Assembly (NCBI GenBank): GCA_949285735.1 | Contig: CASEAQ010000047.1 | Span: 1 to 35,075, forward strand | Direction: 5' to 3' | Source: an uncultured Bacteroidales bacterium | GTDB taxonomy: Bacteria > Bacteroidota > Bacteroidia > Bacteroidales > Muribaculaceae | Length of the DNA: 35,075 nt | Part shown: positions 17,570 through 35,075 of the stretch, one piece after another | Position numbering within the stretch: position 1 is the stretch's first letter | Layout of the letters: every line of letters starts with the position of its first letter | Translations under genes and position numbers: made by a program | The notes under the pieces: model-generated | What the model saw: the letters and a program-made list of their open reading frames with translations, nothing else | Database searches by the model: none | What the model was told of the DNA's origin: nothing

Positions 17570-17577
17570 TACTTTTG
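17570..17577 (+). promoter_or_regulatory. Promoter -7 element TACTTTTG for the pseudo-hybrid kinase gene
   Basis: Exact TAnnTTTG match, 73 bases before the ATG at 17651, leaving a leader of roughly 65-70 bases. The presence of its own promoter argues that the gene is expressed. Confidence 0.6.
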
Positions 17578-17650: not shown

Positions 17651-19090
17651 ATGCTGGCAATAAGACACATAATCATCGCTTCGCTATCGCTCCTGCCCTG
17701 GTGTGCCGCTCACGCCAGTTGCCAAGCCGATGGCGGCTTGCCGTCGCGCATATTGGCAGCTGCCGAGCCGGCAAGCATTTTCTCACCCGACAACCAGTAT
17801 TGGCCCTACCTGCTCGCAATTGCCGTTGCCTTGTTCATGACAATCGTGTTCATCGTCATATCGGTAGTGCGCAACAGGCGCATACGACGCTACTTGAAAA
17901 TAACCAACCAAACAATAGGCGCACTAAACGAGGAATTGATGCGTTCAAAAGAGGAAACCGACCGCCTGAATGCCTACCGCGGCGCATTTATCGAGAACCT
18001 TGCGCGCGAGCTGAAAACGCCGCTCAACACCATCAGCGACTTCACCGTAACTTTGTCGAAGCCCGGACTTAAACAATCGGAAATTGCCGATTATGGCAAA
18101 ATCATTCGCCACTCGGCAAGGAAAATGAAACAGACCATCGACGACATTTCCGACTACTCGAAATCATATTCAAGCGGCACGCGGCTCAACGTGGGCGACG
18201 TGTGCATCAACGACTTGCTGCGCGACATATACTCCGACTTCAAGATTATCATGAGTGAACGGGCTGTGGGCATTAACCTCGTGTTGCCACTGAAAGACGA
18301 GGATAGCCACATCGTCAGCGACCGCGAACGCATCTCAAAGATTGTATATCACCTGCTCGACAACTCGCTCAAATACACCGTACAAGGCAAGATAACATTC
18401 GGCTACCGCATAACAGCCGACCGCAGCAGCATACTCATTTCGGTCAACGACACTGGAATAGGCATTCCGCAACGGCGGCAAATGTTGCTGACGCAGATTT
18501 TCGACAGCCAGCAATTCAACATCATGAACCTGCACGAAAAGATGGGATTGGGGCTGACTATCGCCCAACGCAACGCACGGCTGCTGCACGGCACACTGTC
18601 GTTCAAATCGACGCAAGGTGTCGGCACCACGTTCACTCTGCGGTTGCCGCTGCGCATCGACGACGGCAGCACATCGAGTGCCGTAATTGCCGACCCGCAC
18701 TACCCCACCGTGCTTATAGTCGAGGCTGAAAGCACGTCGTTCCTATACCTGAAGGTGCTTATGGAACGGCTCGGAGCAAACCTGTGGCTCGTGCAGCACG
18801 CACGGTCGGCAAGCGAGGCAATCGCCATTTGCCGCAACAAGCCTGTCAACATGGTGCTGGCTGGCGTGAACCTGTCGATCGACGAGGGTCAGAAAGCCAT
18901 CGAGGGCATACACGCCATTGCCCCGTCGCTGCCCATCGTTGCCGTGCTGCCATCGGGGTCGAAATCAGAAATCGACGATGCCATAACCGCTGGCGCAGCC
19001 GACTATCTCGTGAAACCTGTAAACCGCAGCGCACTGATGCAATTGTGCCGCAAATACCTCAGCAACTACCTCTCCAGCAGCAAGCAGTAA
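17651..19090 (+). CDS. Hybrid histidine kinase-like protein lacking both phosphoacceptor residues
   Basis: 479 residues. Domains in order: signal peptide (1-23), about 28 extracytoplasmic residues with no sensor domain, a membrane helix (about 52-72), a coiled linker, HisKA (about 110-175), HATPase_c (about 210-340) and a receiver-like domain (about 355-470). The ATP-binding boxes look intact: LLDNSLKYT (N box), VNDTGIGIP (G1) and MGLGLTIAQ (G2). In the HisKA motif the usual SHE(I/L)(R/K)TPL reads ARELKTPL, so the phosphorylatable His is Arg (R119). In the receiver, the phospho-Asp position is Gly (G405 in MVLAGVNLS) and the acidic pair reads VEAES, with one acidic residue lost. The Lys of the LVKPVN motif remains. 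It therefore cannot do standard phosphorelay. It may be an ATP-binding scaffold or an allosteric partner of another kinase (inference). It has its own promoter, and its stop lies within a tandem duplication. Confidence 0.9.
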   Translation: MLAIRHIIIASLSLLPWCAAHASCQADGGLPSRILAAAEPASIFSPDNQYWPYLLAIAVALFMTIVFIVISVVRNRRIRRYLKITNQTIGALNEELMRSKEETDRLNAYRGAFIENLARELKTPLNTISDFTVTLSKPGLKQSEIADYGKIIRHSARKMKQTIDDISDYSKSYSSGTRLNVGDVCINDLLRDIYSDFKIIMSERAVGINLVLPLKDEDSHIVSDRERISKIVYHLLDNSLKYTVQGKITFGYRITADRSSILISVNDTGIGIPQRRQMLLTQIFDSQQFNIMNLHEKMGLGLTIAQRNARLLHGTLSFKSTQGVGTTFTLRLPLRIDDGSTSSAVIADPHYPTVLIVEAESTSFLYLKVLMERLGANLWLVQHARSASEAIAICRNKPVNMVLAGVNLSIDEGQKAIEGIHAIAPSLPIVAVLPSGSKSEIDDAITAGAADYLVKPVNRSALMQLCRKYLSNYLSSSKQ

Positions 19091-19188
19091 CCACACATTG
19101 CCATCGTTGCTATCCAATAAAGCCCCCACCTCTCCAGCAGCAAGCAGTAACCACACATTGCCATCGTTGCTATCCAATAAAGCCCCCA
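19069..19188. repeat. Perfect 60-bp tandem duplication spanning the pseudo-kinase stop codon
   Basis: Bases 19069-19128 and 19129-19188 are identical. The first copy contains the last codons of the pseudo-hybrid kinase gene and its TAA; the second is noncoding. The identity suggests a recent slippage or duplication event. Confidence 0.95.
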
Positions 19189-19350: not shown

Positions 19351-19446
19351 AACAGTTAGCCAGCCACCGACACTCTTCTGCCGATAGCTGGCTAATATAA
19401 CAGTTAGCCAGCCACCGACACTCTTCTGCCGATAGCTGGCTAATAT
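19351..19446 (-). repeat. Two perfect 48-bp tandem hairpin units, probable duplicated terminator
   Basis: Units 19351-19398 and 19399-19446 are identical. Each contains TTAGCCAGC and its complement GCTGGCTAA. Read as minus-strand RNA, each arm extends to 17 base pairs through G-U pairs around a GAAGAG-type loop. Read as plus-strand RNA, the extension is broken by A-C mismatches, so the minus strand is the functional sense. The units lie just past the stop of the minus-strand outer-membrane gene and are followed by a T-rich run, as expected of a terminator present twice. Confidence 0.8.
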
Positions 19447-32002: not shown

Positions 32003-33898
32003 ATGAGACTGTTTTGTATTATCATTGCGTGTCTGCTGGCTCTCGGTTTTCACGCTTCTGCCGAAGACCCCGAACTTGTACAGCTAAACGACAATCTTAA
32101 ACGTGCCCAAGCACTCGACGACGGCGATAGCATAGCCGCAGCATATTGCCTACTGGGCGAGTATTATGCCTATCGTTCAATCGACACCGCCATGCACTAT
32201 TCGCAACAGGCGCTGCTGCACATCGAGAACAAGCACGACTCGTGGTATTCTGCCATATTGTGCGACCTTGGTTATGCCCACTTCTCGATGGGCGACATGG
32301 ACAGTGCCCTCGCCTGTTTCCTCGAAGCAAGGAAAGTTGCCGCCGAGGTGGGCGACACCGTGTGCCTGTCAACGGCATTGTCAACCCTGGGGCTCGTGTA
32401 TAAGCGCAAGGAGATGCCCGACTCGACGCTATATTATTACAAGGAGGCGTTGACACTGCTCGAAAACAGCTCCGAGCATGGCGAACTCGCCTACCTGCTG
32501 GGCAACATGACGGTGTTTTGCATCAACGAGAAACGCCTCGACGAAGCCATTTACTATGGCAACCGCGCCGTCGAAGAGGCACAACTCAGCGGCGACATCG
32601 ACATGATGTTCTACACCGGTTATGCTTGCGGCAACGCCTACTTCAAACTCGAACGCTACGACGAGGGCATGAAGCACATAAGGCAGGTAATTGCCGAAGC
32701 ACGCAAGCACAACCTTCCGCAACTGATGCTCAAAGGGTATGCCACAATGATACAGACCCACGATGAATTGCAACACCGCGACTCGGTGAAGTATTACCTT
32801 TCCGAGGGCGAACGGCTTCTGCCATTGCTGCCCGAGGGGTCGGCTGAGGTGCTCGGGCTGCTCGAAGCCAAGGCTATCGTGCTGGGCAAGTGGGGCGACC
32901 ACCGCGAAAGCCTCAAGCTGTGGCAACAGCTCGAAAAGCACAACGGAAAAGGGCTGCACACTCCTGCCGACAAGCTATACCTGAACATCGCGCGCAACAG
33001 CCGCGCCCTGCGCGACTATGCCACAGCCACCAACTACTACGAAAAGGCATACTCCACAGCCGACAGTTTGCGGCAGCAAGACATCGACCAACAAATTTCA
33101 GAACTCACCGTGAAATACGACACCCGTCAAAAAGAGCTTGAAATAGCGAAGTTGCAAAGCGAACAAGCCGAGCAACGGGCTTGGACTGCCATGTGGGCTG
33201 TGGTGGCTCTCGCCGCCATATTGCTGCTTGCCGCCGCCGTGGCTCACCATGCCGCAAGGCGCAAGAAGCAACGCCGCGAGGAAGAACTGCGTCTGGCGCA
33301 AAGCCGCATCGACGGCATGGAGCGCGAACGCGCCCGCATAGCCCGCGAGCTGCACGACGGCGTGTGCAACGACCTGCTTGGCATCGGCTACCGCCTGCAA
33401 GCCGACGGGGCTGCTGGCAACGAGGCACTGAGGCTAATCGAGCAAGTCCGTGGCAGCGTGCGAAACCTCTCCCACGAACTCATGCCGCCACACTTCCACA
33501 ATGCCTCGATTGCCGAGGTCATCGACGACTACGTGGCATCGCTCGCTTCACCAGTTCCCGTCAACCTGCGGTTGCAAGGGAGCGATGCCGAGTTTGAAGC
33601 CGTGCCACAACGCATCGCCCACGAGACCTACCGCATACTGCAAGAGCTACTTGCCAACGTGCTGAAACACTCCGATGCCACCAGCATCACAGTAACGATG
33701 GCAATAGCCGACGGCACTCTACGGCTCACAGTCTCCGATGACGGACACAACCTCAACCCCTCGCCAAACAGCAACAACGGCAATGGCATAGGCATGGTGA
33801 GCATCAACGAACGGGCAGCATCGGTCGGCGGCAAGTTCATCGCCACCCAGTCGCCCCAAGGGCAACACTTCGAGCTGACAGTCACCCTACCCCAGTAA
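32003..33898 (+). CDS. TPR sensor histidine kinase (HisKA_3/NarX-NreB type)
   Basis: 631 residues. Signal peptide at 1-20, then about 340 periplasmic residues of TPR-like helix pairs (AILCDLGYAHFSMGDMDSAL, ALSTLGLVYKRKEMPDSTLYYYKEAL and others). A coiled segment and a membrane helix follow (about 395-415). The HisKA_3 domain carries phosphoacceptor H451 in RIARELHDGVCNDLL. The ATPase has the N box in LQELLANVLKHSDA, then VSDDGHNL and GIGMVSINERA. It should autophosphorylate and pass phosphate to a NarL-type regulator. The likely partner starts about 550 bases downstream on the same strand, beyond an inverted-repeat element. The signal sensed by the TPR domain is unknown. Confidence 0.93.
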   Translation: MRLFCIIIACLLALGFHASAEDPELVQLNDNLKRAQALDDGDSIAAAYCLLGEYYAYRSIDTAMHYSQQALLHIENKHDSWYSAILCDLGYAHFSMGDMDSALACFLEARKVAAEVGDTVCLSTALSTLGLVYKRKEMPDSTLYYYKEALTLLENSSEHGELAYLLGNMTVFCINEKRLDEAIYYGNRAVEEAQLSGDIDMMFYTGYACGNAYFKLERYDEGMKHIRQVIAEARKHNLPQLMLKGYATMIQTHDELQHRDSVKYYLSEGERLLPLLPEGSAEVLGLLEAKAIVLGKWGDHRESLKLWQQLEKHNGKGLHTPADKLYLNIARNSRALRDYATATNYYEKAYSTADSLRQQDIDQQISELTVKYDTRQKELEIAKLQSEQAEQRAWTAMWAVVALAAILLLAAAVAHHAARRKKQRREEELRLAQSRIDGMERERARIARELHDGVCNDLLGIGYRLQADGAAGNEALRLIEQVRGSVRNLSHELMPPHFHNASIAEVIDDYVASLASPVPVNLRLQGSDAEFEAVPQRIAHETYRILQELLANVLKHSDATSITVTMAIADGTLRLTVSDDGHNLNPSPNSNNGNGIGMVSINERAASVGGKFIATQSPQGQHFELTVTLPQ

Positions 33899-34452: not shown

Positions 34453-35075
34453 ATGGACTGCAGCAAGCAACAGAGCATATTATTAGTTGACGACCACGAC
34501 CTGGTACTGCAAGGGTTGAAGAGGATTATCGAATCCTCTCTGCCCGAAATTTCTGTTGTATGCACCGCCAACACGGGGCAAGAGGCTCTGGCTCAAATAG
34601 AGCTGATGCGCTTCGATGCCTATATGCTCGACATCGAACTCCCCGACATCAACGGGCTGGAGCTGGTGAAGCTCATACGCGCCAAGCACCCCGACAGCCG
34701 CATCATCATCAACACCGTACACGAGGAAATATGGTTTATTAAGGACATCATGCGCCACAATGTCAACGGGGTGCTGTTCAAGTCGATTGACTCGGAAAAA
34801 GTGACCGATGCCATCAGGCAAGTCATTGCCGGCGGCACATACTATTGCCGCAACGCCGAGCGGGCGCGCCGCAAGATAGGTATGCGCACCGGCGTGTTGT
34901 CGTCGCGCGAAATCGACGTGCTGAAGCACATCTCCGACGGCAAAAGCACTTCCGAAATTGCCACCGAACTATGCCTGTCGGTCAACACCGTCGAAACACA
35001 CCGCCGACACCTGCTCGACAAACTCGGAGCACGCAACGTCGCCGACTTGGTGATGACAGCCGTCTCCGAAGGCAT
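34453..35075 (+). CDS. NarL/FixJ-type response regulator (REC-LuxR), cut by the window end
   Basis: About 207 residues visible, frame still open at the window end; family length is about 210-220, so only a few residues are missing. The receiver has the acidic pair D13-D14 in LLVDDHD, the phosphoacceptor D60 in YMLDIELPDING, and a conserved Lys in LFKSI. The LuxR-type helix-turn-helix follows: VLSSREIDVLKHISDGKSTSEIA, then LSVNTVETHRRHLLDKLG. It probably accepts phosphate from the TPR sensor kinase upstream, which has the matching HisKA_3 domain. An in-frame ATG at 34426 is an alternative start; 34453 is preferred because of the A-rich sequence before it. Confidence 0.93.
   Translation, partial: MDCSKQQSILLVDDHDLVLQGLKRIIESSLPEISVVCTANTGQEALAQIELMRFDAYMLDIELPDINGLELVKLIRAKHPDSRIIINTVHEEIWFIKDIMRHNVNGVLFKSIDSEKVTDAIRQVIAGGTYYCRNAERARRKIGMRTGVLSSREIDVLKHISDGKSTSEIATELCLSVNTVETHRRHLLDKLGARNVADLVMTAVSEG

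Follow-up and report, generated by a model that had tools for sequence, protein, structure and literature searches.

The stretch of DNA analysed here (the window; 35,075 nucleotides) belongs to a Muribaculaceae genome of 2.6 Mb in 85 contigs that is estimated to be 80% complete, and carries near its middle a gene for a protein with the layout of a hybrid histidine kinase (Table 1). Its frame is open throughout, with no internal stop and in agreement with the original prediction, and the HisKA, HATPase_c and Response_reg domains of its product each score above the curated Pfam cut-off. A first structure model based on a 9-row alignment was poor (pLDDT 52.0), whereas a second one, based on 38 rows, reached a mean pLDDT of 82.3 with confident HisKA, HATPase and receiver folds; since its pTM was 0.52, the relative placement of the domains was left unused. 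Within the hydrophobic N-terminal stretch, a helix is modelled with low confidence at residues 2-13. The last codons and the stop of the gene fall within an exact 60-base tandem duplication (19068-19188), so that the 3′ end of the gene is present in two copies, and a second exact repeat, of two tandem 48-base copies, follows a few hundred bases further 3′ (19351-19446). Elsewhere in the window are an ordinary-looking TPR histidine kinase (32003-33895; HisKA_3 with its His, and HATPase_c) followed by a response regulator that has its Asp (34477-34818), and an open reading frame on the reverse strand (1442-2686) with a weak match to the DISARM phospholipase D-like protein DrmC (35.5 bits, cut-off 133). 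An exact promoter element had also been proposed for the gene. A -7-type octamer, TACTTTTG, is indeed found upstream of it, but no TTTG lies at the -33 spacing. The window contains 30 matches to the pattern TAnnTTTG (22 expected), and at the five places where a TTTG precedes it by 17-23 bases the match is not this octamer. The same octamer is present at most 200 bases upstream of the gene in 5/9 orthologues.

Table 1. Window coordinates of the hybrid kinase-like gene, its promoter octamer, its domains and its conserved or altered motifs.
Feature	Position	Strand	Evidence
-7-type promoter octamer TACTTTTG	17570..17577	+	73 bases 5′ of start codon
Pseudo-hybrid histidine kinase gene, 479 codons + stop	17651..19090	+	ORF and Pfam
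N-terminal hydrophobic stretch, residues 1-23, likely signal peptide or first membrane helix	17651..17719	+	sequence reading
Transmembrane helix, about residues 51-74	17801..17872	+	sequence reading and confident helix in model
HisKA (DHp), residues 110-171	17978..18163	+	PF00512, 37.1 bits, cut-off 26.9
R119 replacing the phosphoacceptor His	18005..18007	+	R in 9/9 genus, H in 31/31 outside
HATPase_c (CA), residues 224-335	18320..18655	+	PF02518, 66.8 bits
N box HLLDNSLKYT, N238 and K241 kept, N234 to His	18350..18379	+	alignment with 31 homologues
G1 box DTGIGIP	18449..18469	+	invariant in 9/9
Degenerate F box TQIF, with T/S for F281 and I for R283 across the genus	18491..18502	+	alignment
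End of ATP lid and G2 box KMGLGL, Gly297 to Lys, G299 and G301 kept	18539..18556	+	alignment
Pseudo-receiver, residues 354-465	18710..19045	+	PF00072, 47.4 bits
Acidic pocket EAE, second acidic residue to Ala359	18722..18730	+	A in 9/9, D in 25/25 outside genus
G405 replacing the phosphoacceptor Asp	18863..18865	+	G in 9/9 genus, D in 26/26 outside genus
L433-P434 replacing the conserved Thr-Ala	18947..18952	+	L, P in 9/9; outside genus T 25/25, A 24/25

Within the family (397 genomes, E 1e-40), matches to the protein were obtained in nine genomes, all of one genus, and a search of that genus (which includes Candidatus Avimuribaculum pullicola) gave an orthologue in each of the nine genomes sampled. 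The eight other orthologues are 61-79% identical to the window protein over the shared part, and a scan of genome contigs returned 14 loci, eight of them these same orthologues and six with 22-25% identity. That the protein has almost no extracytoplasmic sensor, as had been noted, is true of the window copy and of five others (445-479 aa), but three of the nine orthologues (G064, G112 and G023; 773-774 aa) retain an N-terminal periplasmic ABC_sub_bind sensor. The missing sensor is thus a secondary condition, and the six sensor-less copies may descend from one loss or two (two changes on the nine-row tree, a single one in 32% of bootstraps). In the order-wide search (393 genomes, 1e-45) 134 genomes were matched, some with proteins of identical full architecture. 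These sensor-bearing ABC_sub_bind-HisKA-HATPase-REC hybrid kinases of Bacteroidales (e.g., L071) are built like the long orthologues and likely represent the ancestral kind, although, unlike the window protein, they possess the His, the Asp, the Thr and a full F box. A tree of 23 proteins resolves the genus as one clade (support 100/100) on a long stem of 1.22 changes per column, and its neighbour is a kinase of the same family (L036; pairing support 89/89) with a sensor and an intact His and no receiver.

The replacement of both phosphoacceptors, the central claim of the original prediction, is borne out. R119 lies within ENLARELKTPL and G405 within MVLAGVNL, and the acidic pocket of the receiver reads VEAES, as had been stated, identically in all nine orthologues. 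The protein therefore lacks the HisKA His and the receiver Asp that define a functional hybrid histidine kinase. Both substitutions are fixed in the nine genus members, which makes either chance or a sequencing error untenable as an explanation, and none of these nine genomes has an orthologue with the His or the Asp or with a frameshift. Outside the genus the His is present in 31/31 aligned homologues (the best-scoring loci among those fetched, not a random sample) and the Asp in all 26 that have a receiver there. In addition to the Asp, the receiver has lost the second acidic residue (DD2) and the Thr and has retained Lys455 in 9/9, and so falls among pseudo-receivers, in which at least one of DD, D, T and K is missing. 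The window gene is also an exception in its own genome. Of 13 HisKA places, 12 have the motif His (11 by pattern, and L112 read by eye) and this gene alone has Arg; likewise, 15 of 16 receivers have the Asp, including one cut at a contig end (L124) that was scored from the window translation, and the window gene is again the only one without it. In published counts, 0.9% of HisKA domains (722 of 76,471) have no His and 2.0% of receivers (3,111 of 152,269) have no Asp (PMC12632262). By parsimony, the loss of both sites would be a single event on the genus stem.

The ATP-binding boxes had been described as intact, which applies to the nucleotide core only. N238, K241, D267, G269, G271, F284, G299 and G301 are retained in the nine genus members, but four other positions are altered in all of them: N234 (Asn in 31/31 out-of-genus homologues, His in the genus), F281 (Phe in 31/31, Thr or Ser in the genus), R283 (Arg in 29/31, Ile in the genus) and G297 of the ATP lid (Gly in 31/31, Lys in the genus). 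Judged from these alignments, a kept core with an altered lid would fit binding better than catalysis.

Selection on the gene is purifying, as had been anticipated for a maintained protein. Over residues 51-475, 19 of the 36 genus pairs have a finite dS, and their dN/dS (Nei-Gojobori) ranges from 0.033 to 0.155; these values are approximate because finite dS is high (0.95-2.95) and the remaining 17 pairs are saturated. With HisKA and HATPase both present, the His absent throughout the genus and the gene under such constraint, the protein has the features by which a pseudo-histidine kinase is recognized. Purifying selection by itself, however, is silent on what is selected. Median pN/pS is lowest of the five regions in HATPase (0.161), followed by the HisKA-HATPase stretch (0.178), HisKA (0.210), the receiver (0.241) and the transmembrane and linker region, which is the least constrained (0.377). 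In two His-bearing paralogues from the same genomes, the only two groups that served as controls, HisKA is 93-100% and 96-100% identical and HATPase is less frozen. The HisKA/HATPase ratio of amino-acid differences is accordingly 1.71 (1.09-2.73) in the pseudokinase and 0.22 (0.05-0.49) in the first paralogue over five genomes, and 1.36 (0.82-2.25) and 0.18 (0.00-0.49), respectively, over the four genomes of the second comparison; in neither did the pseudokinase ratio come down to that of the paralogue in any of 5000 bootstraps. In the pseudokinase, HisKA has thus lost its special constraint. That its HATPase exceeds its HisKA in absolute conservation is not firm, since the bootstrap interval excludes 1 in the five-genome set only (over all nine genomes the ratio is 1.34, 0.94-1.91). 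HATPase itself is about as constrained as in the paralogues (pN/pS 0.139 vs. 0.177 and 0.154 vs. 0.110, pseudokinase first). As far as such sequence comparisons reach, this pattern fits a repurposed protein.

A conserved partner was looked for in the gene neighbourhood. When the 25 window open reading frames were compared with 13-16 kb around the eight other orthologues, no family was common to all nine, a few were common to two to four neighbourhoods, and the upstream epimerase that adjoins the gene was found near the orthologue in three of the eight. A divergently read neighbour of 1400 aa occurs in 3/9 genomes (L020:3411-7622, G098 and G064) and has no Pfam match above cut-off. The nearest His-bearing paralogue of the same genome (C11; 880 aa) was considered as an obligate partner and rejected, being present in 5/9 genus genomes only; its piece analysed with Pfam has PAS, HisKA and HATPase_c domains only, and by eye its N-terminus (L101, L129) resembles a related periplasmic sensor.

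The receiver raises a related question, as that of a hybrid kinase normally passes its phosphate to an Hpt domain (PMC11481889). No Hpt domain (PF01627) was matched in the nine genus genomes or in five further genomes of the family, and among 198 family genomes there were 10 with a match at E 0.01 and one with a match above cut-off. By contrast, Hpt was matched in all 12 genomes from outside the family in which sensor-bearing homologues occur; the outgroup list includes matches of ~680 aa that are presumably CheA, and Bacteroides ihuae, also in this control, had no match. The pattern suggests that the receiver may have been orphaned before its residues were lost. Hpt loss as a sufficient cause was nevertheless rejected: Hpt is nearly absent from the family and was not matched in the genus, yet hybrid kinases with receivers persist in the genus, among them one with both His and Asp (L048, L049, L050 and L052), and the Hpt-free B. 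ihuae was also counted against it. A stronger version, in which Hpt loss in the family orphaned the receiver and the genus then rebuilt the kinase as a phosphate-free membrane switch, either a sensor of ATP or ADP or a docking platform gated by nucleotide, with the ATP-binding domain and its own modified lid as the working part, seems rather unlikely.

Several described proteins resemble the pseudokinase in part. Members of the DivL family bind a phosphorylated single-domain regulator. DivL of Caulobacter (PDB 4q20) shares with the window protein the HisKA and HATPase fold, a fixed substitution at the His (Tyr in DivL) and, as it is described, a transmitter turned to binding (PMC4211667). Its structure ranks fifth among the PDB sequence matches, both proteins have His at the N234 column, and it has the highest target TM-score (0.83) among the 50 structures listed for the model. 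This shared fold is, however, generic for HisKA kinases, and the solved structures closest to the model are ordinary kinases of this type with DivL among them. Moreover, the window protein falls outside the DivL family, which has Tyr (or Ala) rather than Arg at the His site and several PAS domains before HisKA, of which Pfam matched none in the window protein at E 0.01; unlike DivL, it has a fused pseudo-receiver. RetS of Pseudomonas, which was also matched by sequence in the PDB (6dk7, 6dk8), is a hybrid kinase reported to act on another kinase, GacS, by forming a heterodimer (PMC12189002). The phosphatase and phosphate-siphoning actions described for RetS in the same source contrast with the absence of both acceptors here, and no co-inherited or neighbouring live kinase was found among the nine genus genomes as a RetS-type partner. 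With its receiver fold lacking D, DD2 and T, the window protein also resembles bacterial pseudo-receivers (PsR). The pseudo-receiver of ShkA is described as regulating a live kinase (PMC12632262), whereas that of the window protein follows a kinase that is itself dead, at its C-terminal side, and both losses are combined in one hybrid protein. CCNA_03265 of Caulobacter is likewise a hybrid kinase with a HisKA domain that lacks the His, but is described as retaining the receiver Asp (PMC11481889). Together with a ChrS variant, DivL and RetS provide reported precedents for dead or rewired kinases that act via binding (PMC4211667, PMC12189002, PMC9491836).

Alternative explanations differ in what they require of the parts that have been kept. 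Simple decay, in which the gene is turning into a pseudogene and sensor loss marks one more stage, would agree with the sensor missing in 6/9 orthologues, with a HisKA less constrained than in the paralogues (in one orthologue it scores 23.8 bits, below the Pfam cut-off of 26.9) and with the burst of change on the long stem. It is nonetheless highly improbable, as the frame is unbroken in 9/9, dN/dS is far below 1, HATPase is constrained as in His-bearing paralogues and identical substitutions are fixed in all nine genomes; the original view of a maintained pseudokinase is thus upheld. Maintenance could also mean that catalysis persists in a cryptic form, in which the phosphate goes to an unusual acceptor, e.g., Arg119 itself, or is donated in trans, within a heterodimer, to the His of the partner kinase. 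Phospho-Arg is a phosphoramidate, as is phospho-His, Glu120 beside the acceptor position is invariant in the nine orthologues, and the nucleotide core is retained in a strongly constrained HATPase. The changes at N234, F281, R283 and G297, which are near-invariant in the 31 homologues, the fallen constraint on HisKA and the failure to find a partner all speak against this reading, which we regard as very unlikely.

HisKA proteins can dephosphorylate a response regulator even when they have no autokinase activity, and a role as response-regulator phosphatase would account for the conserved Glu120 and for the Thr at position 123 of the window copy. This Thr, the residue of the HisKA phosphatase motif, is found in 31/31 out-of-genus homologues, but is Ala in 6/9 genus members, so that a phosphatase role would not be general to the genus and is not what has been retained. 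The His is reported to be inessential for HisKA phosphatase activity, in favor of this alternative, although it still contributes to the reaction (PMC12632262), and on balance a phosphatase appears improbable. Finally, the protein may be purely structural, left with dimerization or complex assembly and binding nucleotide merely to fold. A transmembrane and stalk region kept without the sensor in 6/9 orthologues would be expected of such a protein, but membrane and linker form its least constrained part and HATPase its most constrained one, the reverse of what is predicted, which makes this possibility unlikely as well.

The gene is best regarded, and with reasonable probability, as a maintained pseudo-histidine kinase that binds nucleotide and, much as DivL or RetS does, acts in trans by docking. 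More generally, because both acceptors are lost, the gene is intact in nine of nine genomes and the ATP-binding part is the best protected, the protein very probably signals by binding partners rather than by phosphate transfer. In the proposed model, a sensor-bearing hybrid histidine kinase would have lost the phosphate-carrying residues of its HisKA domain and receiver on the genus stem. Its descendant would dimerize at the membrane and hold ATP or ADP in the modified pocket, where the nucleotide would act structurally or allosterically, so that the shape of the membrane-anchored dimer would depend on it. The dimer stalk, the ATPase face and the pseudo-receiver could then provide the docking surfaces through which the state of another kinase or of a response regulator is altered, and the protein might in this way serve as a scaffold or allosteric activator, as originally suggested. 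Since the periplasmic sensor is gone in the window species and in five others, the input would there be cytoplasmic, i.e., a nucleotide, a partner or the expression level.

To our knowledge, histidine kinases dead at a single site and dead receivers are known but have rarely been explained. The titles and abstracts of the literature searched described no hybrid kinase in which both sites are dead, and the search found no paper joining ‘Avimuribaculum’ and ‘histidine kinase’. In all species sampled from the genus, one and the same hybrid protein has lost both sites, and its living sister architecture is found outside the genus, which provides a dated before-and-after case. The loss of the conservation advantage of HisKA while the constraint on HATPase is kept may serve as a measurable signature for finding repurposed kinases in other genomes, and the loss of Hpt partners from a lineage provides a testable idea on why receivers die.
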